Source: a virus
Length of the DNA stretch: 25,016 nucleotides
Reading direction: 5' to 3' (one strand)
IMG/VR virus record: IMGVR_UViG_3300028388_003903
Coordinates: 1-25,016 of that record
The position numbers and the translations under genes are program-made. The notes beneath the pieces were generated by a model, which saw only the letters and a program-made list of their open reading frames with translations, was not told the DNA's origin and ran no database searches. Positions 7,864-24,791 of the stretch are shown one piece after another (within the stretch, counting starts at the first letter, position 1; each line of letters begins with the position of its first letter).

Positions 7864-8994
7864 TTAAACCCACGTCAGCCGATCCGCGGCTAACGCGGTC
7901 AACAGTTCCTCGGCGATCGGAATACCCATACCGAATCGCACATCAAACCCCGGCGCGCCGGCATCTTCCATATTGCCTTTGAACACTGCCCGGATCGCCT
8001 CGATTGCTTTCCAGTCGGCCTGGCCTTCACGCCTGGCCCGCTCGATCATCAACGCCAGCAAGCCGGACCCGTACGGCGTCGCCATGCTGGTACCGCTCAT
8101 CGATCGATATCCCGAGCCGCGATTCGAAAACGACACGATATTGACGCCCGGACAACCCCAGTCGATCTGCGGCCCGCCACTGCTGAAATTCGCAATACGC
8201 TTGCTCGAATCGTACGCGGCCGTACACAAACACGATCGATAACGCGCCGGCCAACCGATCGTGTTGCGCCCGCGGTAGCCGCTATTGCCCGCTGCGGCGT
8301 TGACGATGCATCCCTTCGACCAGGCGTAATCAATCGCCTCGTTCGTCGGTCCGTAGCTTGAGCCTCCGCCGAGACTCATTGAAATCACGTCGGCGCCCTG
8401 ATCGGCGGCCCACCGGATACCGGCGGCAATGCCGGAACTGGACCCGCTGCCGCGATTACTGAGCACCTTACCGACAATCAACTCGGCTTGCGGCGCCACG
8501 CCGATGTAATTGCGTCCCAGCGCCGTGCCCGCACAATGCGTCCCGTGGCCGTTGCCGTCCCGGACCGACTCGCCGCGGATGAACGACCGCTCGGCGATTG
8601 GCTCCGGACCATCGGTGTGTTTTGTATAACCCGTGTCCAAGATTGCGATACGGACACTCTCGCCGGTGCCTTTCTCCCAGATCGGCGCCCACTCCTCCGG
8701 CCTCAAATGCCACAAAGTCGGCGCTTCAGCAAACACCTCGTCGGTCGGCTTGAAATCCGGCGGAATAGTAACCGGCGGATCGTTGTCAAAATCCGGCTCC
8801 CCAGCAAACACGCGGCGGATTTCCTCGGCGATTAACTCCTCGTATTCCGCCCACGGGATATCATTGGCCAGACACCGATTGCGCACGATCCGCCTGGCTT
8901 TGGCTTCGGTCCCGGCGTTATCGCCCGCGTCTCGCACCTGCTTAGCTAGGCGGCACGCGATAGCCCGCGCTTGTAATGATTCGTCCATATTCAT
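7864..8994 (-). CDS. S8 subtilisin-like serine protease
   Basis: A 376-residue protein beginning at an ATG that forms an ATGA overlap with the previous gene; the longer upstream frame is rejected. An N-terminal helical extension (about residues 1-90) precedes a complete peptidase S8 domain: catalytic Asp in ILDTGY (D120), His in GNGHGTHCAG (H150), oxyanion Asn in AAAGNSGY (N237) and Ser in GTSMATP (S303). The substrate-binding strand VISMSLGGGSSYG is present. There is no signal peptide. Subtilases are not part of the core siphovirus tail toolkit. The location between head-tail completion and tail tube genes, with a secreted and a TM protein following, suggests a virion-associated or lysis protease, which could be relevant for protein-rich planctomycete envelopes. 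Confidence 0.9.
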   Translation of the reverse strand: MNMDESLQARAIACRLAKQVRDAGDNAGTEAKARRIVRNRCLANDIPWAEYEELIAEEIRRVFAGEPDFDNDPPVTIPPDFKPTDEVFAEAPTLWHLRPEEWAPIWEKGTGESVRIAILDTGYTKHTDGPEPIAERSFIRGESVRDGNGHGTHCAGTALGRNYIGVAPQAELIVGKVLSNRGSGSSSGIAAGIRWAADQGADVISMSLGGGSSYGPTNEAIDYAWSKGCIVNAAAGNSGYRGRNTIGWPARYRSCLCTAAYDSSKRIANFSSGGPQIDWGCPGVNIVSFSNRGSGYRSMSGTSMATPYGSGLLALMIERARREGQADWKAIEAIRAVFKGNMEDAGAPGFDVRFGMGIPIAEELLTALAADRLTWV

Positions 8995-9422
8995 GCTTGG
9001 TACGTTAGCTCCACATACGAGGAGAAAAGCCGTTTGGTCCGCCAATGGTCTACGTCCCGAATCGTCGGCTGCCCGGCCGAAACGCACGAATAGCCGCTCG
9101 GCAGTCGGCTGGGTAGTAGCCCGTCGATGATCGCTTCCGCCAGCGTTTGGTCGGCGTCGGCCGTTGTATCTTCCGTCCCGGCTTCGAGGGGATCGAAAAT
9201 AGCCACGTGTAAGACGATGGACTCGGTTCGCAAACTGCGGGATACGAGGGTCGTCTCTCGAGTGAACGGAGCTACGAGTATTTCCGCCTCGACCAAACTC
9301 GCCCGATCCCGTTCCGGCGGTGTCCACACCGCTACCGGCGTGATCCCTCGAGCCGTAACGGCCGCCAGCGCCGCAATGGCCGCGGTCGCCTCGTCTCGCA
9401 CTGTCTTAAGCCGGCTAGGCAC
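8991..9422 (-). CDS. Minor tail/head-tail completion protein (gpZ/gpU-like position)
   Basis: A 143-residue protein with an N-terminal helix (SRLKTVRDEATAAIAALAAV) and a beta-rich middle containing SIVLHVAIFDPLEAG, ending in SSYVELTYQA. Helix followed by a sheet that ends near the C-terminus resembles tail terminator proteins, and gene order (capsid, connector, this gene, tail tube) supports that. It overlaps the preceding gene by eight bases and the subtilase gene by four. Assignment is mainly syntenic. Confidence 0.7.
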   Translation of the reverse strand: MPSRLKTVRDEATAAIAALAAVTARGITPVAVWTPPERDRASLVEAEILVAPFTRETTLVSRSLRTESIVLHVAIFDPLEAGTEDTTADADQTLAEAIIDGLLPSRLPSGYSCVSAGQPTIRDVDHWRTKRLFSSYVELTYQA

Positions 9423-12041: not shown

Positions 12042-13527
12042 CCTCGACACCTTCCGTTTCGGTTTGCTGTTCTGCTGGGGGCGCCATGCTTTCCACCTCG
12101 ACCCCATACTCGGCGGCTAGCTCGCGATCGCGGGCCAGCTCCCGGTACCGCTGCCGGCGTTGTTCTTCCCAATCCAGCCCACGCCGCGCGTACTCGATGG
12201 CCCACGTCGTGGTACCGTTAACCAATTCCGTTTGCTGCCCGCTCGCTTCCTTTGCCCGGTCGACGTGCTCCGGCTCTGGCCACCGCCAGCCTACCGACCA
12301 CTCGCCAGCCGTGGCGGCAAACATCGCCGGCAGAAACCCGTTAATCAGCAGCGCCTCATCCAGCCACGACTCAAACACGCGGTCGAGGAAATCACGCTCG
12401 AGATACTGGCTGCGGTCCGCGGCCATCTGGCGGCCGAACGATTGCAGATCCAGCCGCCCGGAGGCGTAGTTGTAGTTGCTGGCGTCGCCCAGCGCGACTA
12501 CGGCCGGGACACTCATGGCCCGTGCAATCTCTCGCAGCAACGCCCGCACAAACTCGTCGAACGTGCTATTTGGATGCTCGGCTTTCAACTGCGCTAAACT
12601 CGAGCCCCACGGCACCGTGGTAAACGCACCGCGTTCAATCGGGATTCGATCCCAGCCGGCAATCGCCATATTCTCGGCGTCATCGTCCGGCGGATTCTCC
12701 GAGTATAAAATCGCCGCGAAATCGGCCGCCGTTTCCGCGGCTGTTACTGTCGCCAGCTCAAAACGCCGTAACAACGCGAATAACGGCAGCGCGGGCGTAG
12801 TGGCTGGTATACCCCGCAACTGTCCCGGCCGCTCGCGGCGGTAAACGTGCATTACTTCGCTGGCCGGTATCCAATCGGCCGTGATATCTTGTAGCCCTTC
12901 GGCATCGCCCGGATGAGCCCGCAACATCGAGTAGGCTTCCGGCTCGCCGGCACTGTCGAGCCGGATGCCGCTATCGTCCAGGCTCTGCACGGTGGCCACG
13001 GGATGATCCTCAAACTGATCGCACTCATAAAGCCGAACGTTTAGCTGCACGGGCGTACGCATCCCCGGCCGACTGTTGGAGAATACCGCGAACGCCTCGC
13101 CGTCCTGATACCACGCAAGAACGGCCGTGGTGAGTTTTTGCGCCAGCCGCCGCTGCGTGGCCCACGCGGCCCACTGGCGTTCTACCGTTTGGGCTGCCGC
13201 CCGCAGCTCCCGCAGCCGCTCGGCATCTGTCTCGCTGCCCTGGTACGTTAGCTGAAGCGTTGGCCCCGAGCCGACCGTATAAGCTGCGATGGTATTCAGA
13301 ATGCCTCGAGCGTAGCAGTTATTTGCCACCTCGTACCGACTCCGCTCGCGTAGCGTTTTACGGACCGCGGCGGAGTTAGCCGAGATGCTACTCAGCCCGT
13401 CCGCCATGCCCCAATGACGTCGGTTGTCCTCGGTGGTTTGAGCCGCGTCGTAACGTCCGCGCACGATCCGCCGGCCGTACATTGCCGGCCGCCTAAACGC
13501 GTGTTTTAGTGTTTGGAGCCACTTCAT
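12007..13527 (-). CDS. Portal protein, lambda family
   Basis: A 506-residue lambda gpB-type portal. Signs are the RTLRERSRYEVANNCYARGILNT-like segment near residues 58-80 (written here only in outline), TVGSGPTLQL, the stem-region EVMHVYRRERPGQLRGIP, and the C-terminal MSVPAVVALGD followed by NYNYASGRLDLQSF, all typical of this family. The protein forms the dodecameric DNA entry ring. Its ATG overlaps the TGA of the upstream LamG-SGNH gene (ATGA), so the inserted gene is translationally coupled to the portal. The acidic Glu-rich tail is common. Confidence 0.95.
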   Translation of the reverse strand: MKWLQTLKHAFRRPAMYGRRIVRGRYDAAQTTEDNRRHWGMADGLSSISANSAAVRKTLRERSRYEVANNCYARGILNTIAAYTVGSGPTLQLTYQGSETDAERLRELRAAAQTVERQWAAWATQRRLAQKLTTAVLAWYQDGEAFAVFSNSRPGMRTPVQLNVRLYECDQFEDHPVATVQSLDDSGIRLDSAGEPEAYSMLRAHPGDAEGLQDITADWIPASEVMHVYRRERPGQLRGIPATTPALPLFALLRRFELATVTAAETAADFAAILYSENPPDDDAENMAIAGWDRIPIERGAFTTVPWGSSLAQLKAEHPNSTFDEFVRALLREIARAMSVPAVVALGDASNYNYASGRLDLQSFGRQMAADRSQYLERDFLDRVFESWLDEALLINGFLPAMFAATAGEWSVGWRWPEPEHVDRAKEASGQQTELVNGTTTWAIEYARRGLDWEEQRRQRYRELARDRELAAEYGVEVESMAPPAEQQTETEGVEDGEEQTAEAAN

Positions 13528-16184
13528 AACGCGAATTTTTCTTTCCAGTTCTCAACGGACACGCGTAAAAGCTTGCTTAGATCGGCAATCAACAATGGAT
13601 CGTAAGTCGTCGGACTTTGCCGCACTGCGGTAGCAATTAAATCGGCAAAGTACGTCGCCGAACCAGCCGTCGGATGTAACCCCTGGCCAATTGTCGCGAT
13701 AGCGGCGATCTCCACGTCAGACCCAACCCCCGCCGCACCACTGGTGATGGTCTCGGACACCGTTAACGTGTTGGCTGTAGCGCCGGTAATCTGATACCAC
13801 CCCTCCACAACCGGCGTTCCCGCCAAGGCGGTCTGCTTAACGTAAACCCAACTGCTGCCGGGGATAACGAGCACTTCATCAAAGCCCCCGCTTTTGGTCA
13901 GCGTCAGCGTGCCATTGTCCCATGTAGCATCAGAAATCGCCAATTTGTGTGTCCGAATGCGCGGATCGTACCACGCTTGCAAGCTGCCGGTTGCCGGTGT
14001 CGCCCCTGGTGAAATTACCCCGTCGTCGCCGGACACTGGCAATTCCCAAATGCCATCGCTCATTTCGTAGAGGCTGACAAACTCCACGGTCGTCGGGTTA
14101 GCAAGTGCGGCTCGCATAAACCCGATATTCTGATTTGCGAAATCGTTTCGCCACTCGGCTAACCGCACACTGCCGGTAGCAGCGTTGCGGGCGTGCATGT
14201 ACAAGCCCGGCAACAAATAGCGTGGCGGCAGTTTGCCAGCGCGGCGGAAGGCTAGATCCCACGCTGTTTTTGTGCTTTCTGCGAGCTCTTGCCACACCTC
14301 CCGAGTGCGCACTTCTTGATCGCCTAACATAACAATGACCGCTTCGCGATCCGCTGGCACGACCGTCTTGACAAACGTGTCTATGTCGTGCTGACACATC
14401 GATTTGTCGCTGTCTTGCGTGTGCCCGTATCCTGCATACGACCAACTAGCGGCGCCTAGTCGCATAGCTGGCATGCTGTCGTCCGACTGTTTGTATTCCA
14501 GCCCAGTCAAAAACAGATATCGATTCGCCGCATCGTTAGGGTCATCCGTTGGAACAACGTCAAAGCCTCGCAGGAAATGCAGTTGGTCGCTGCCTGCCGT
14601 CCGCTGCCAAGAGTGTGTCACATCCACCTCGGCCAACAACTGAATGGTGCCGGCGTGCTGGGGATTGTCGAGATTTGACACAGTGATGACGGTCTCTGCA
14701 TTTTCCGAATCAATTGTTTTGACCTTGACCGCCTTAACCTGCTGCGACACGTCGCTAGCCACGCGATGGTAAATCCGGATGTACTGCGGTCCGTCCCATT
14801 CGTGATCCAGGCGATCCAAGCAGCCGCCATGTGACCAGTGATGGCCACTAGCGAAATTGACAACCGGCTTGATGGTCGCGCGTGAATACCGCGTCCCCGT
14901 CTGGTTGTATTGCTCAGGGATCGGATCGGTATCTTCTTGCATCGGCACGGTGAAAATGACAGAAATTGTTTGCCCCGCTAAACTCCCTGGGTCTGAATCG
15001 ACATTGAACGTGATCGTTGCTCCGGTTTGCGCGTCACCAACGCCAGCGCCCGCCGTGAACGCCGTCAAAATATAGTACACCGAATTGATCTTGACCTTCT
15101 GGCCGACAACCAGGTTTGGGCCATCGTAGGTCGCGGTGCAAACGCCGTCCGCCCAAGTCGAACTACTAATGGTGCGCGTTGTCTGATTTTCGACGACAAA
15201 ATCATTGCCTGTTCCAACGTCCTGCGAATTGCCGGTGAACCCTGATTCAGTATGCGTAAAAAAGTCTGCCACGACGCGCCCCATCGGCCGCCCGTAGTTA
15301 AGTTTGTCGTACGTCGGTCCGAACACACGAATGGGCGAATAGCTACCAAACGAGTCGGACAAGAAAATCAGCGTTGCAGGCCGATTCCCTGCAAGCCGGC
15401 TTGTAGCGACGCCCTTGTTTGTGTCGGCAATAATCTCGCCTGAGTAGCTGCCGAATAAATCGCTGTCATCCTCAAATCGCAGGCTGTGCTGGGAAGCAAG
15501 AATTGCGTCTGCCCCGATGATGTCTACGCCGTCGTCGATTAATGGCATGCGGCCCAAAACCGTTTTTCCGGCTAGCGTTGTGCCTGTGCGGTCGTAGGTT
15601 GGCGAGCCGCTGGAATAAATCGTTGCCGCTTCGCCTGCGGTTAACTCAGCATCCAACACGCATACGTCCGCAAACTTAGCAGATGCCCCGTGGTTAGGGG
15701 CGACGGCGTCCCGTCCCGTCAACGGTACAAACGACGCTGTGGAACTCAAAAACAACACCCCCGTGTCCACGTCGGGCATTGTGCCACCAGTGATTCGCTG
15801 CGTTCCGTCTACGATCAGGTTGTAGCCTCCACCACTGGGAAAAACGAATGCAAAATGATGCCACTCATTTTGCGATACCGCTGCACCGGGATTGTTGTTG
15901 GAAATCACGCCGTTGTCCTGATCGCGGGCTACAATGTGCAGCCCCCATGAACCCGCTGCGGCGTTCGTAATCAACTCCATCCGAATAAAAGCTCGATGAT
16001 TGGCATCAGCCGCAAACGGATAGCCCAGCTCGTACCAGGCGAGTAACGGTACGCCCCACGCGTTGGCGGTGCTAGGCGCGTTGATCCAGACGGACAGACT
16101 CTTGCCACTGGCGAGGATCTCCGCAAACACTGGATCATCCGTCCAGGCAGCATTTCGCCGCCCCGCTGACATTTTCAATGCCAT
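13524..16184 (-). CDS. LamG plus SGNH-hydrolase-like giant protein
   Basis: An 886-residue protein from the ATG at 16184 (a GGGA lies upstream; the longer frame would overlap the gpW-like gene). Residues about 25-195 form a LamG/concanavalin-like lectin domain: SLSVWINAP, NEWHHFAFVF, YNLIVDG and KFADVCVLDAELTAGE. From about 270 an SGNH/GDSL-type core begins (LIFLSDSFGSY, nucleophile candidate S278), interrupted by a beta insert (about 340-420), then VIVMLGDQE and a closing QGLHPTAGSATYFADLI with the catalytic His near residue 837. The usual Asp of the DxxH motif is Gln, and block III has GDQ instead of GxN. A small beta module (about 750-820) precedes the end. It probably binds and deacylates surface glycans as a tail-spike-like or cargo protein. 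Confidence 0.85.
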   Translation of the reverse strand: MALKMSAGRRNAAWTDDPVFAEILASGKSLSVWINAPSTANAWGVPLLAWYELGYPFAADANHRAFIRMELITNAAAGSWGLHIVARDQDNGVISNNNPGAAVSQNEWHHFAFVFPSGGGYNLIVDGTQRITGGTMPDVDTGVLFLSSTASFVPLTGRDAVAPNHGASAKFADVCVLDAELTAGEAATIYSSGSPTYDRTGTTLAGKTVLGRMPLIDDGVDIIGADAILASQHSLRFEDDSDLFGSYSGEIIADTNKGVATSRLAGNRPATLIFLSDSFGSYSPIRVFGPTYDKLNYGRPMGRVVADFFTHTESGFTGNSQDVGTGNDFVVENQTTRTISSSTWADGVCTATYDGPNLVVGQKVKINSVYYILTAFTAGAGVGDAQTGATITFNVDSDPGSLAGQTISVIFTVPMQEDTDPIPEQYNQTGTRYSRATIKPVVNFASGHHWSHGGCLDRLDHEWDGPQYIRIYHRVASDVSQQVKAVKVKTIDSENAETVITVSNLDNPQHAGTIQLLAEVDVTHSWQRTAGSDQLHFLRGFDVVPTDDPNDAANRYLFLTGLEYKQSDDSMPAMRLGAASWSYAGYGHTQDSDKSMCQHDIDTFVKTVVPADREAVIVMLGDQEVRTREVWQELAESTKTAWDLAFRRAGKLPPRYLLPGLYMHARNAATGSVRLAEWRNDFANQNIGFMRAALANPTTVEFVSLYEMSDGIWELPVSGDDGVISPGATPATGSLQAWYDPRIRTHKLAISDATWDNGTLTLTKSGGFDEVLVIPGSSWVYVKQTALAGTPVVEGWYQITGATANTLTVSETITSGAAGVGSDVEIAAIATIGQGLHPTAGSATYFADLIATAVRQSPTTYDPLLIADLSKLLRVSVENWKEKFAL

Positions 16185-16209
16185 TTCAAAAGCGTTCCCG
16201 TAAGCTAGT

Positions 16210-16422
16210 CTAGTCGGTCGATGGTGTCCCTGATGCACTGGGCGGAATCAGCTTTCCGAAGCGCAGCCCGCCCTTTTTCTTGGCGGTCGCATTTTTGGCG
16301 GCGAGGTATCGATCCGCTTTAATCAGCTCGTCGATGCTGCGCGCCTCGGTGCTTTCACCGTCCACCGCATGCTTTTTCGGTGTCCCCGCGGCCGTTTCAA
16401 TTTCATTGGATAAATCTGCCAT
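16210..16422 (-). CDS. gpW-like head-tail connector/small pre-portal protein
   Basis: A 70-residue protein. The N-terminus MADLSNEIETAAGTPKKHAVDGES and the middle SIDELIKADRYLAAKNA, followed by GLRFGKLIPPS, match small proteins placed just upstream of lambda-type portals, comparable in position to gpW (recalled similarity). It would help stabilise the packaged head. The large LamG-SGNH gene separates it from the portal, breaking the normal adjacency. Confidence 0.75.
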   Translation of the reverse strand: MADLSNEIETAAGTPKKHAVDGESTEARSIDELIKADRYLAAKNATAKKKGGLRFGKLIPPSASGTPSTD

Positions 16423-18820: not shown

Positions 18821-19180
18821 TCACAACGGAGAAGCCTGCCACACCCTCAAACATACACCGCCCGGCGGCTTTCCGCTCGCCCGCCGCAAGTACAGCTCGC
18901 AAACCTGGGCGTCATCGTCGAACAGTTGGTAATACTCGAGCACATCAAGCAACGCCTTAAGCACATTATCGAGATCCCGCCGGCGGTGGTCCGGTGGCGT
19001 GAGTGCGATCTTCAGCCGCACTTGCTCCGATCCGAACAGCCCCCGATAGGGCAACAGCTCCGCCCCGCACGCATCCCGGAACGCCTTACCCTCGGCTGCG
19101 ATGTAGAAACGGCCCCGCGCTTGTCGCCAATACCGATTGACCGATGGCGGATAGGGTAGCTCTAACTTGACACTTGGCAT
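18821..19180 (-). CDS. rusA: RusA-type Holliday junction resolvase
   Basis: A 119-residue endonuclease. The N-terminus LPYPPSVNRYWR is the family hallmark (PPSxNxxWR). The catalytic cluster RRRDLDNVLKALLD supplies D69, D71 and K75, and FDDDAQV supplies D90, matching the E. coli RusA residues D70, D72, K76 and D91. It resolves branched DNA before packaging. The ATG at 19180 lies within the end of the initiator-like gene (19-base overlap), and the much longer upstream frame is not used. Confidence 0.93.
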   Translation of the reverse strand: MPSVKLELPYPPSVNRYWRQARGRFYIAAEGKAFRDACGAELLPYRGLFGSEQVRLKIALTPPDHRRRDLDNVLKALLDVLEYYQLFDDDAQVCELYLRRASGKPPGGVCLRVWQASPL

Positions 19181-19938
19181 TGGCGCGCCCTTCTGGCTCG
19201 AATCGCTCGCGCCCTGGCCATCTCGGCCGCTAGCGCCGGATCTCGGCGCCGCGTCGGTACCGGCTCCCGCTTCGGTGGCCACCCGGCCGCGGCTGTCAGA
19301 CCTGGCCTGGCCCGCTTCAGCCGCAGACACAACGCACCTGGTCCGTACGCCTGGGTGTCGTACGCCTCGAGGATCGCCGCTACGTGGCTCCAATCCGTAC
19401 GCTCGGCTGCCTCGCGCACCAAGGCCGCGGAGTAGACCCCGAGCTCCTGAGCCCGCTCGACAATTGCCGCGCCCTCCTCCTCGGCCCTCCTAGGAGGTTC
19501 TTCTTTTGCGCTTCTAGGCGCTTCGGGTGTCACAATGTCCCCACGCTTGGACTCAATGTCCCCACGCTCGGACAGAATGTCCCCACGCTCGCAAAAAATT
19601 TTGGCCCGAGCCGGCACCAGTAGCGCCAACTCCGACCACACAATCCGGTAGTGATTGCTCACCGTCCCCAAGCGGTTTCGGCGCTTCACTACCACCAACA
19701 GAGACAAACGCACCAATGCGGCCAGCGCTCGCTTGATGGTCCGCTCTGTCACGTTCGAACGTACGGCTAGCGTCCGCACGCTCGGCCAAGCCTCCCGGCC
19801 GCGGCCGAAATCGTCGATGCACCGCAGAACCGATTTAGCGGTAGCCGGTGCAACGCCCAAACCGCGCGGCAAGACAGCTTCGGCCAGTAGCCCCAACTGC
19901 TCCGCGCGATCGAAATCAAACTCCGTTTGCCTTGGCAT
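19162..19938 (-). CDS. Winged-helix replication initiator-like protein
   Basis: A 258-residue protein. Residues about 35-105 form a winged helix of the type found in phage/plasmid initiators (AWPSVRTLAVRSNVTERTIKRALAAL, then a basic wing with NHYRIVW; the helix-turn-helix spans about 54-77). A linker contains three copies of a heptad with the core RGDI (about 114-135), then charged helices and an Arg-rich tail. GGGG precedes the start. The next gene is RusA, and no other replication gene is present, so this is the best initiator candidate, recruiting the host replisome. The coding sequence carries 21-bp direct repeats, as lambda O carries its origin. Confidence 0.8.
   Translation of the reverse strand: MPRQTEFDFDRAEQLGLLAEAVLPRGLGVAPATAKSVLRCIDDFGRGREAWPSVRTLAVRSNVTERTIKRALAALVRLSLLVVVKRRNRLGTVSNHYRIVWSELALLVPARAKIFCERGDILSERGDIESKRGDIVTPEAPRSAKEEPPRRAEEEGAAIVERAQELGVYSAALVREAAERTDWSHVAAILEAYDTQAYGPGALCLRLKRARPGLTAAAGWPPKREPVPTRRRDPALAAEMARARAIRARRARQCQVSS
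19534..19602. repeat. Three 21-bp direct repeats plus A/T tract, origin candidate
   Basis: Units start at 19534, 19555 and 19576. The 14-base core AATGTCCCCACGCT is identical in all three, including every synonymous position of the encoded CGT-GGG-GAC-ATT codons. The third unit runs into AAAAAATTTT (19593-19602). Iterons followed by an A/T-rich stretch inside the initiator gene are the arrangement of the lambda origin. Confidence 0.6.
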
Positions 19939-22142: not shown

Positions 22143-22421
22143 CTAGACAAACTCGGTGGATACCGGATTGCTCGGCTTGCGGCCCGGAGTCTCCGGAGGT
22201 AACAACTTCCCCTCGGCGACGCGCTCCTCGAGCGTCGTTTTGCCTTGCGCCACCGCTCGGCGTGTCGCTTGATAGCATCGCTCATGACACCCGCGCTTGA
22301 CCGTGCCCTCAAGTGGCTCCAAGCACGCCACACACAAACCCTCGCGCTCCGCCCTGGCTACTCTCTGCCGTGCCGTCCGCTTCACCGTGATCCACCTCGG
22401 TTCCCAAACTAAAACTCGCAT
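22143..22421 (-). CDS. CxxC/CHxxC small protein, leftward paralogue
   Basis: A 92-residue basic protein, first gene of the leftward operon. The ATG at 22421 is preceded by AAAGGGG 8 bases upstream. A zinc-type site is visible: C30, C33, C45/H46 and C49 (GLCVACLEP, KRGCHERCYQ). It continues RRAVAQGKTT, VAEGKL and a proline-rich basic tail PPETPGRKPSN. Over a 42-residue block starting at KRG it shares 24 identical residues with the divergent gene at 22583-22930, so the two are paralogues. In the position occupied by cro in lambda. A DNA-binding regulatory role is inferred from this placement and composition. Confidence 0.8.
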   Translation of the reverse strand: MRVLVWEPRWITVKRTARQRVARAEREGLCVACLEPLEGTVKRGCHERCYQATRRAVAQGKTTLEERVAEGKLLPPETPGRKPSNPVSTEFV

Positions 22422-22470
22422 CACCGATGCCCCTTTCCACCTGATAGACATCCGTGCCGAGTAAACCAGC

Positions 22471-22494
22471 CGCCAGGCGGCGGCCACACTGGCG
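22471..22494 (-). promoter_or_regulatory. Hairpin at the 5' end of the leftward transcript
   Basis: CGCCAG and CTGGCG can pair around a 12-base GC-rich loop. With transcription predicted to start near 22492, this stem would form the extreme 5' end of the mRNA and might stabilise it or act in antitermination. Confidence 0.4.
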
Positions 22495-22498
22495 AAAA

Positions 22499-22527
22499 AA
22501 TATAGCGGTTCCCGGTTGCCGTGTCAA
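22499..22527 (-). promoter_or_regulatory. Strong leftward sigma70-type promoter
   Basis: On the minus strand a perfect -35 TTGACA (22527-22522), an exact 17-base spacer and a -10 TATATT (22504-22499). Transcription would start near 22492 and feed the whole leftward gene train. Nothing comparable was seen elsewhere in the window. Confidence 0.85.
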
Positions 22528-22539
22528 TTATTTTAACAC
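22521..22539. promoter_or_regulatory. Inverted-repeat operator candidate
   Basis: GTGTCAA-TTATT-TTAACAC: two 7-base arms matching at 6 of 7 positions around an A/T centre. It covers the -35 box of the leftward promoter, so a bound dimer would block RNA polymerase. Only one copy was found by eye. Confidence 0.55.
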
Positions 22540-22547
22540 AGAAAAGC

Positions 22548-22576
22548 TTGCAGTCTTTCGAAACCGTGGCACAATA
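22548..22576 (+). promoter_or_regulatory. Possible rightward promoter, leaderless start
   Basis: TTGCAG, 17 bases, ACAATA. The -10 is poor. The predicted start point falls on or next to the ATG at 22583, and there is no clear ribosome-binding site, so the transcript could be leaderless, as lambda cI mRNA from PRM is. Confidence 0.35.
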
Positions 22577-22582
22577 CGGGAC

Positions 22583-22930
22583 ATGCAGGCCAACGAAGAG
22601 ATAAAACGGCGTTTAGAAAAACTGATCCACGATGCGCAAGCACTCTATGCGCTCGTGGAACGTTCGGGCGCGCCTATGTTTCCGGCCGATGCGGCCCAGA
22701 ACCTGGCCAAGCGTATTTGCCTCGAGTGTGGCAAGCCCATAACCGCCGCCCAGCAAAGCAAAGCCAAACGCGGCGTGCACGAACACTGCTACCAACAGCA
22801 ACGACGCGCCATACGCGATGGGAAATATACAGATGCGGACCTGGTCGCTAGCGGGAAGCTAGCCCCGCCCCGAAAGCCGGGGCGGCCGCGCAACAAAACC
22901 GCATTGGAACGGGAAGGGGGAACGTCATAA
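22583..22930 (+). CDS. CxxC/HxxC small protein, rightward paralogue (repressor candidate)
   Basis: A 115-residue protein divergent from the leftward operon. The first 40 residues form helices (EEIKRRLEKLIHDAQALYAL) absent from its paralogue. Zinc-type residues are C46, C49, H66 and C69 (RICLECGKP, KRGVHEHCYQQ). The tail RKPGRPRNK is AT-hook-like (GRP flanked by basic residues). It lies where a lysogenic repressor gene would be, reads away from the promoter and operator, and may be translated leaderless. The added N-terminal helices could dimerise it. Longer upstream frames lack initiation signals. The repressor role is a hypothesis; no classical HTH is seen. Confidence 0.8.
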   Translation: MQANEEIKRRLEKLIHDAQALYALVERSGAPMFPADAAQNLAKRICLECGKPITAAQQSKAKRGVHEHCYQQQRRAIRDGKYTDADLVASGKLAPPRKPGRPRNKTALEREGGTS

Positions 22931-23092: not shown

Positions 23093-23308
23093 ATGCCAGC
23101 CGAACGTCAGAAGCAATGCCCCACGTGCGGGCCGGTATTAGCCCGAAAAATCAGCACGTTAACTAAAAACGAAACGCTTGGTCTGGGTTTGCTTACCCTA
23201 TGCACTTGCGGCGCGGGAATCTTGGTGGCTCTCCCGTACGCGATCTACCGCGGCACCCGCGCCGCCGGTTGGCATTGCCCCCGCTGCGGCTCGCAAATCC
23301 TTGACTAG
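23093..23308 (+). CDS. Small zinc-ribbon membrane protein
   Basis: A 71-residue protein. CPTCG (about residues 9-13) and CPRCG (62-66) flank a hydrophobic segment (about 30-50, LGLGLLTLCTCGAGILVALPYAIY). This split-ribbon topology recalls LITAF-type domains, in which a hydrophobic hairpin inserts into a membrane between two halves of a Cys4 zinc site. It is in the lysogeny-side module and may be expressed from the prophage; superinfection exclusion is one possibility. Start chosen as the first ATG; a ribosome-binding site is not obvious. Confidence 0.7.
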   Translation: MPAERQKQCPTCGPVLARKISTLTKNETLGLGLLTLCTCGAGILVALPYAIYRGTRAAGWHCPRCGSQILD

Positions 23309-23391: not shown

Positions 23392-23628
23392 ATGGATAGG
23401 CAGACACTCGGCCCGGAGCTGCGGGCCCTCATCAAGTCGGCGGTTGCAGAAGCGCTCGCCTCGGAATCGGCCGGCCGCCTGGCGTACACCTACCGCCAGG
23501 CCGGCGAGGCTTGCGGCCTGCCCTGGACTCGCATACGCGATGCGCACCACCGCGGCGAACTGCGGGCAAAACGCGTCGGCCGTACGTGGCTCATCACCCG
23601 CGCCGAACTCTTGCGGTGGCTGGGCTGA
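23392..23628 (+). CDS. Excisionase-like helix-turn-helix protein
   Basis: A 78-residue protein. A short N-terminal helix (ELRALIKSAVAEALASE) is followed by an HTH_17/MerR-like DNA-binding domain: LAYTYRQAGEACGLPWTRIRDAHHRGEL, written in outline as helix-turn-helix, then the wing RAKRVGRTWLITRAELLRWLG. It is translationally coupled to the integrase gene (TGATG). A Xis role in directionality control is the standard reading for such a partner. No ribosome-binding site is free of the terminator hairpin just upstream. Confidence 0.85.
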   Translation: MDRQTLGPELRALIKSAVAEALASESAGRLAYTYRQAGEACGLPWTRIRDAHHRGELRAKRVGRTWLITRAELLRWLG

Positions 23629-24791
23629 TGGCTAGCGTTCACTTTGACCCCGGCCGCAACGGCTGGCGGTTAACCGTCAGCGTCCGCGGCCAGCGCCGGC
23701 CGTTGTGGCTTGGCCCGATCTCGAAATCGGCAGCCCACGAGATAGCCGGCCACGTGCAAGAACTGGCCACCGCCGCCGAGCTCGCCATTACTCCCACCGC
23801 CGAGGCTGCCGCTTGGGCTCGCGCCGTCGGTCCCCGGATCTCACGCCGCCTAATTTCCTGGGGGATCGTCCGCCCGGCCGCCACGCGTTCCCATCTGCCG
23901 ACCACGTTAGGCCCGTGGCTCCGGTGGTATATCGATGGCCGCACTGACATACGGCCGAAAACCCGCAATCGCTACGAAAACACACGTAACAAACTTTTGG
24001 AGCACCTGGCCGCCGATCTGCCTTTAACCGAACTGACGCCTGCTGCCTGCGAACGCCTGGCCCGCAAGCTATACGCCGAACACGCCGAGAGCACAGCCGG
24101 CAAATTAATCAAAAACGCGCGCATGATGCTTGCGGCGGCTCAGAAAGAAAGAGTGATAGACGCCAATCCTCTGGCCGGCATCGTCGCCAAGTCCGGCACC
24201 GATAAAACCCGCGCCGTCTACGTTCCGGCCGAGTCCGTCCTCGCCATGATCGAAAAGGCAGAGCCCCTATGGAGGCTTTTGTTAGCTTTGGCAAGGTTTG
24301 GAGGGTTGCGCGGGCCGGAGGAACTGCTCGCCCTTGAGTGGTCGCATGTAGACTGGTCGGCCGGCCTGATCCACAACCACAGCCCGAAAACCGGCCTCCG
24401 CCACGTGCCCATTTTCTCCGAGCTCCGGCCCTACCTCGAGGATTACCACGCCGTAGCCCCGCACGCCCGCTACATTTGCCCGAAATACCGCACCGGCAAC
24501 GGCGCCGGCCCGATGCGCAAGCGCATTTACGCCATTGCCGACCGCGCCGGGGTGCAGCCCTGGCCAAAACCCTGGGTAAACCTCCGCGGCTCGGCTCGTA
24601 CGGATCTCGAGGCGCGTTTCCCCGCCCACGTGTGCGACGCCTGGCTCGGCCACTCCACCGCGATCGCCAAAAAGCACTATCTGCGCGTCACTCCCGAGCA
24701 CTGGGCCGCCGCTATCGGTGGTGCGCCGGCCGTTTCGCGTGGTGCGCCCCGTGGTGCGCCGAGCAATACACCAGCCGACACCAGCCGATAG
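23628..24791 (+). CDS. int: Tyrosine-family site-specific integrase
   Basis: A 387-residue tyrosine recombinase. An N-terminal arm-binding-like region (about 1-85) is followed by a SAM-like core-binding domain (about 90-180) and the catalytic domain. Catalytic residues: R228 (FGGLRGPEE), K254 (SPKTGLRHV), R320 (VNLRGSART), H342 (LGHST) and Y351 (KKHYL), with the usual nine-residue H-Y spacing. The His normally three residues before the second Arg is V317, as recalled for planctomycete integrases. The C-terminus is a low-complexity Gly-Ala-Pro repeat. The ATG overlaps the xis stop. It catalyses integration and excision at att sites. Confidence 0.94.
   Translation: MASVHFDPGRNGWRLTVSVRGQRRPLWLGPISKSAAHEIAGHVQELATAAELAITPTAEAAAWARAVGPRISRRLISWGIVRPAATRSHLPTTLGPWLRWYIDGRTDIRPKTRNRYENTRNKLLEHLAADLPLTELTPAACERLARKLYAEHAESTAGKLIKNARMMLAAAQKERVIDANPLAGIVAKSGTDKTRAVYVPAESVLAMIEKAEPLWRLLLALARFGGLRGPEELLALEWSHVDWSAGLIHNHSPKTGLRHVPIFSELRPYLEDYHAVAPHARYICPKYRTGNGAGPMRKRIYAIADRAGVQPWPKPWVNLRGSARTDLEARFPAHVCDAWLGHSTAIAKKHYLRVTPEHWAAAIGGAPAVSRGAPRGAPSNTPADTSR

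Follow-up and report, generated by a model that had tools for sequence, protein, structure and literature searches.

Phage decision switches are a textbook system and, to our knowledge, are built almost wholly from helix-turn-helix proteins. The locus described here raises the question of what serves in their place when the divergent early genes of a virus encode two small zinc proteins. The stretch analyzed, hereafter the window, is the whole IMG/VR record IMGVR_UViG_3300028388_003903 (25,016 nt), which is classed as linear and is therefore possibly a fragment.

Two Divergent Genes Encode Paralogous Zinc Proteins

Two genes diverge from a short intergenic region, and each heads an operon:

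22143-22421, minus strand: short zinc protein gene, 92 aa, best start ATG 22421; heads the leftward replication/packaging/head operon
22422-22582, no strand assigned: divergent regulatory region, 161 bp
22583-22930, plus strand: long zinc protein gene, 115 aa; heads the rightward excisionase/integrase operon

The short gene also has an in-frame upstream start (GTG 22487), without backing from homologues. The first-pass annotation had described the two products as paralogues, identical at 24 of 42 residues from KRG onward. This was borne out by a local alignment score of 143 (1000 shuffles gave 28 ± 5, with a maximum of 49) and by an E-value of 6.8e-14 in profile comparison. Judged by these scores, the long and short proteins are true paralogues. 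Both share CxxC, RGxHxxC, a CYQxxRRA helix, a GK.T..xLVAxGKLxPP-like stretch and a PGR tail; the CxxC and (C/V)HxxC sites and basic tails reported earlier for both were confirmed from their sequences. The CxxC...RGxHxxC core is kept in 24 of 25 family members. The proteins are mostly basic (pI 7.6 to 10.6 across the family), and exact AT-hook cores (PRGRP, KRGRPK) are restricted to a few homologues (L052, L057, and L005).

Family Assignment and Predicted Structure

Neither window protein matched any family in Pfam, PHROG, NCBIfam, or PADLOC or, by sequence, any solved structure, and no HTH_3 domain was matched above the Pfam cut-off in either. AlphaFold2 models, built with 6-8 sequences, gave the zinc core of both copies confidently (pLDDT about 90), with helices at residues 2-27, 35-42, 67-78, and 84-90 of the long copy and 15-27, 47-58, and 64-69 of the short copy. 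The extra N-terminal helices proposed earlier for the rightward copy are thus predicted as well, helices 2-27 and 35-42 preceding its zinc core. Foldseek returned no match with E < 1 in the PDB (both copies) or in BFVD (short copy), a weak alignment being that to the glucocorticoid-receptor DNA-binding domain (E 8). Since there was no significant structural match, the fold label was taken from the arrangement of the cysteines. Each protein is probably a finger of the treble-clef type (CxxC ... R-x-x-(H/C)-x-x-C), after which come a helix and a basic GR(K/P) tail. On this evidence, the long and short zinc proteins are a new protein family in a known layout.

An alternative role for such proteins would be at RNA polymerase, modulating host or phage promoters without specific DNA binding. 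TraR/DksA proteins, which carry a C4 finger without basic tails, bind RNA polymerase and not specific DNA, and the long/short proteins resemble them in combining an N-terminal helix with a small zinc finger of the CxxCGxxI type. Single weak matches were also obtained, to the DksA-like phrog_54 (E 0.0022) and to TraR TIGR02419 (E 0.073). However, only one member matched in each library, and a C4 finger matching either profile was found, weakly, in just 1 of 16 members and not family-wide. The second metal pair of the zinc proteins is HxxC, as against CxxC in TraR/DksA, and their basic GRP tails, long/short paralogue split and conserved divergent siting are atypical of TraR. Action at RNA polymerase is hence regarded as improbable.

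The Divergent Pair Is Conserved in Relatives

Scans with single proteins (virus contigs, phage records, and the first genome scan) found no relatives, so that alignment profiles were needed. A profile from the alignment of both copies retrieved three virus contigs, in each of which the match was one half of a divergent paralogue pair. Iteration added the pairs of L007 and of the planctomycete genome contig L015, and a profile search of planctomycete genomes added G612, L052, L053, and L054. Looking for the pair in further planctomycete prophages, as had been proposed from the window alone, thus yielded nine more divergent pairs, found in contigs of viruses, genomes of planctomycetes and one prophage within a chromosome, giving ten in all (the window, L003, L004, L005, L007, L015, G612/L031, L052, L053, and L054). 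Every pair consists of one long copy, with an N-terminal helix and often M-D-x-x-x-I, and one short copy, and the pair-bearing virus records hold exactly two family copies each. The L054 and G612 pairs are located in host chromosomes or long host contigs, and a tRNA-Leu gene adjoins that of L054. The family is rare: it was found in 1 of 392 genomes sampled across the phylum, and in 6 of 397 within one order and 10 of 241 within one family, where remote members are included among the hits.

In the tree, long and short copies cluster (4 label changes, compared with 8.7 when shuffled), and the held-out pairs L052, L053, and L054 fall into the same long and short subfamilies. By both results, the duplication looks older than the phages.

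Solitary copies also occur, short in L008 and L011 and long in L055, L056, and L057. The latter three, in chromosomal or contig-end settings, look like remnants. In L008 (5667-5974), the short gene is kept together with its promoter and palindrome, and no long gene stands at the expected place; this is perhaps a phage that lost its repressor.

Sidedness and Neighboring Genes

The long-gene side of the window carries the following genes:

23392-23628, plus strand: excisionase-like HTH_17 protein
23628-24791, plus strand: tyrosine integrase

An integrase was in view in seven loci (the window, L003, L004, L005, L007, G612, and L054). In all seven, the side of the integrase and excisionase is taken by the long copy, while the short copy points into the opposite operon. 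The operon headed by the short copy starts with recombination/replication genes (YqaJ-type exonuclease, RecT, RusA) or with CsrA, where YqaJ, RecT, and CsrA were identified by eye from sequence; in L005, it starts instead with sigma-factor genes. Typical prophage-expressed genes (GYF_2/DUF4282 membrane protein, HSDR_N-like) stand behind the long gene in L004, G612, and L005. The layout is that of two regulators facing away from each other, with one toward the integrase and the other at the head of the lytic operon.

Several further genes were noted around these loci. In L005 (6267-7443), two sigma-factor-like genes lie directly 3' of the short gene, the nearer matching Sigma70_r2 and r4. In L004, G612 (L025/L031), and L058, CsrA-like genes (recognized by eye) come after the short or zinc gene, and a tRNA-Met gene (CAT) is nearby in L004, L053, and L058. 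In the window, a LITAF-like zinc-ribbon protein (23093-23308) is encoded downstream of the long gene and ahead of the excisionase-like one, a subtilase (Peptidase_S8) gene lies amid the head/tail genes (7864-9327), and a 904-aa protein with a Laminin_G_3 (ConA-like lectin) domain (13524-16238) adjoins the portal gene.

Absence of Classical Repressors

No HTH_3 or Peptidase_S24 protein was detected in the window, nor any S24 autoproteolysis domain by the Peptidase_S24 search, so the earlier statement that it holds no classical helix-turn-helix repressor or Cro stands by this search. The Pfam helix-turn-helix matches seen there were the HTH_17 protein noted above and an HTH_36 protein encoded at 19162-19938, within the lytic operon. 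Across the seven virus records, no HTH_3 or Peptidase_S24 match exceeded the cut-off; below it, G003 gave one HTH_3 fragment of 17 bits. Within the prophage region of G612, one 27-residue HTH_3 match lies near the RusA gene, away from the switch, and L015 carries an XRE-like HTH gene, recognized by eye, downstream of the short gene (2153-2458). Other regulators therefore exist in some relatives.

Promoters of the Two Genes

The intergenic region contains two predicted promoters and an imperfect palindrome:

22499-22527, minus strand: short-gene promoter, TTGACA - 17 bp - TATATT, sigma-70-like, 11 of 12 consensus matches
22521-22539, minus strand: imperfect palindrome GTGTTAA-AATAA-TTGACAC, overlapping the short-promoter -35; a candidate operator, not significant alone
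22548-22575, plus strand: long-gene promoter, TTGCAG - 16 bp - CACAAT, weak, 7 nt before the ATG

None of 200 shuffles gave a promoter as good as that of the short gene, and a similar one is present in most homologous loci. The distance from its -35 to the long ATG is about 99-114 bp in most loci and 55 bp in the window, whose intergenic region is a shortened version. The palindromes near the short-promoter -35 are phage-specific, with perfect 8-bp arms in L003 and L008 only, and no operator motif shared by the short promoters was found.

Upstream of the long gene, the pattern across loci is TTGCRN, 16-17 bp, an AARAAT-like element, 6-8 nt and the ATG, with no Shine-Dalgarno sequence. This promoter is unconvincing at any single locus and convincing only in sum, its score over 12 loci, which share ancestry, being 83 against 70.3 ± 3.7. 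Because the window promoter stands 7 nt before the ATG and a Shine-Dalgarno sequence is lacking, the long-gene mRNA is probably leaderless. As read from these motifs, the intergenic design is lambda-like, with a strong short-gene promoter and a weak, apparently leaderless long-gene promoter.

A Predicted Leader Hairpin at the Short-Gene Start Codon

The leader of the short gene is predicted to fold over its own start:

22415-22461, minus strand: leader hairpin over the short-gene start-codon region, -17.0 kcal/mol, z -2.05

Seven loci carry CATGGAY 26-37 nt upstream of the short ATG, and this element pairs with the region of the start codon, CATCCATG or a variant of it. The stems are about 6-9 bp in L004, L005, L008, L015, G612, L053, and L054; folding puts the AUG inside the stem in all of these (z -0.5 to -3.7) except L008, whose stem was read by eye. 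The window stem differs from the CATGGAY stem of its relatives and is likewise stable. The pairing was read by hand, because the arms were wrongly placed when the short leaders were aligned with MAFFT, and in this reading the stem was absent in L007, L003, and L052. Two compensatory changes (U-A to C-G in L053; G-C versus U-A at the outer pair) support the hairpin in this small sample. The start codon of the short gene is thus probably masked by a hairpin; a DNA palindrome or chance may also account for the conservation of the start region. Upstream ORFs were rejected as the cause of the conserved ATGGAY, since frame and length vary. No known RNA family was found at the switch.

A Conserved Palindrome at the Long-Gene Promoter

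A 29-bp palindrome, CRYAAGTC-N13-(G)ACTTGCG, overlaps the long-promoter -35 at a constant position upstream of the long gene. In leave-one-out scoring, it was the best site in all nine loci (or came second, outscored by nothing but its own opposite strand), and it also occurs before the solitary L055 and near the remote relatives L033, L058, and L059. In the window, the distal half is missing:

22546-22553, plus strand: remaining proximal half-site GCTTGCAG

In the form CGCAAGTC-N13-GACTTGCG, the palindrome recurs in planctomycete chromosomes, mostly between genes. With the 13-bp spacing, 36 copies were counted in 11 host genomes against 5 for the reversed control, about sevenfold; the 14-bp spacing, a rough negative control on partly different records, showed no clear enrichment (24 against about 19). 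One copy (L064:2015-2043) lies directly beside a tmRNA gene. Given this enrichment in host intergenic DNA, the palindrome is a host-type site, not countable as an operator of the zinc proteins, and a host factor may bind it and so take part in the switch as well. An RNA hairpin was rejected, as departures from the consensus in one half are not matched in the other, and a DNA site is therefore preferred. LexA was rejected as the binder, with no good site before lexA (PF01726 loci in 10 host genomes); a LexA DNA-binding domain was absent from the G612 host genome and present in the other ten searched.

The palindrome bears on a second alternative, in which the switch is in fact operated by a host transcription factor bound to it, with the zinc proteins as accessories, for example in anti-repression, excision or takeover. 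Its enrichment in the hosts, its mostly intergenic placement and its position by the long promoter, shared by nearly all loci with a pair, are consistent with such a factor. However, it is degenerate in the window, it stands at the long and not at the strong lytic promoter, it is not found before lexA, and the conserved divergent paralogues would be left unexplained. A host factor is thus an unlikely candidate for the switch protein itself; next to action at RNA polymerase, it is nevertheless one of the two chief alternatives to the zinc pair.

The Pair as a Probable Lysis/Lysogeny Switch

The layout, the sidedness, the lack of other repressors and the age of the duplication together make a CI/Cro-like switch the best reading, and it is considered likely that the pair serves as the lysis/lysogeny switch of a temperate planctomycete phage. 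The first-pass annotation had proposed such a switch; the proposal now gains conserved divergence in ten loci, the same sidedness in seven of seven, lambda-like promoters and the absence of HTH_3/S24 repressors from the virus records, and its steps of DNA binding, tail contact with an A/T-rich operator, repression and antagonism stay predictions. The long copy would be expressed along with excisionase and integrase from its weak promoter, whose transcript is probably leaderless. Its extra N-terminal helix would serve dimerization, and by binding DNA it would repress the strong promoter that drives the short gene and the lytic operon. The role of early Cro-like antagonist would fall to the short copy, whose translation is probably gated by the start-codon hairpin.

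The small, basic proteins and the exclusion-like genes among the long-side neighbors might point to a pair for toxin-antitoxin, superinfection-exclusion or other moron functions that is only located at the lytic/lysogenic boundary. This is very improbable, because such pairs are usually co-directional and variable, whereas in ten diverged loci the two genes each head an operon, the operons running in opposite directions, and neither protein matched a toxin or defense family.

The CI/Cro-like reading can be extended, more tentatively, to a switch unlike any described, and it is possible, though rather doubtful as a whole, that anciently duplicated zinc paralogues replacing CI and Cro are combined with a leaderless repressor mRNA, a hairpin-gated Cro analogue and a palindrome, shared with host promoters, that links the promoter of the repressor with a host regulator in place of RecA/LexA. 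Full-text literature searches, incomplete in coverage, listed no title on a zinc-protein lysogeny switch or on lysogeny control in planctomycete phages. If the switch reading is true, the lambda layout can arise from unrelated parts, namely one family of small zinc proteins; it would also offer a handle on lysogeny in Planctomycetota and allow lysogeny genes to be annotated in metagenomic viruses that now seem to have no repressor.

Comparison With Known Systems

The Ogr/Delta proteins of P2/P4 phages are small zinc proteins that control transcription; they are late activators present in single copy. The zinc pair differs from them in its cysteine pattern, and no profile match to them was obtained here. 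Planctomycete RGLCxxCY/HY zinc proteins (L033, L034, and L058-L061) share the cysteine core of the pair (profile E about 1e-10 to 1e-3). Unlike the pair, these are mostly solitary, in tandem or beside an HTH_17-type gene, with no long/short pair. A sister layout was observed among them in L033, L034, and L058, where an HTH_17-type gene, with RGLCxxC zinc proteins encoded after it, stands back to back with the gene of a small helical protein; in L033 and L058, the same palindrome lies between the divergent genes.

In lambda, CI and Cro are divergent regulators, the larger on the integrase side and the smaller first in the early lytic operon, with a strong early promoter and a weak, leaderless-type promoter for the larger regulator gene. 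The zinc pair is alike in its divergent arrangement, its sidedness and its strong-versus-weak promoter design. In contrast to CI and Cro, both of its members are zinc proteins of a single family, without a helix-turn-helix or S24 cleavage domain, and the zinc-pair loci add a hairpin over the start of the small gene and a palindrome that is common to host intergenic DNA.
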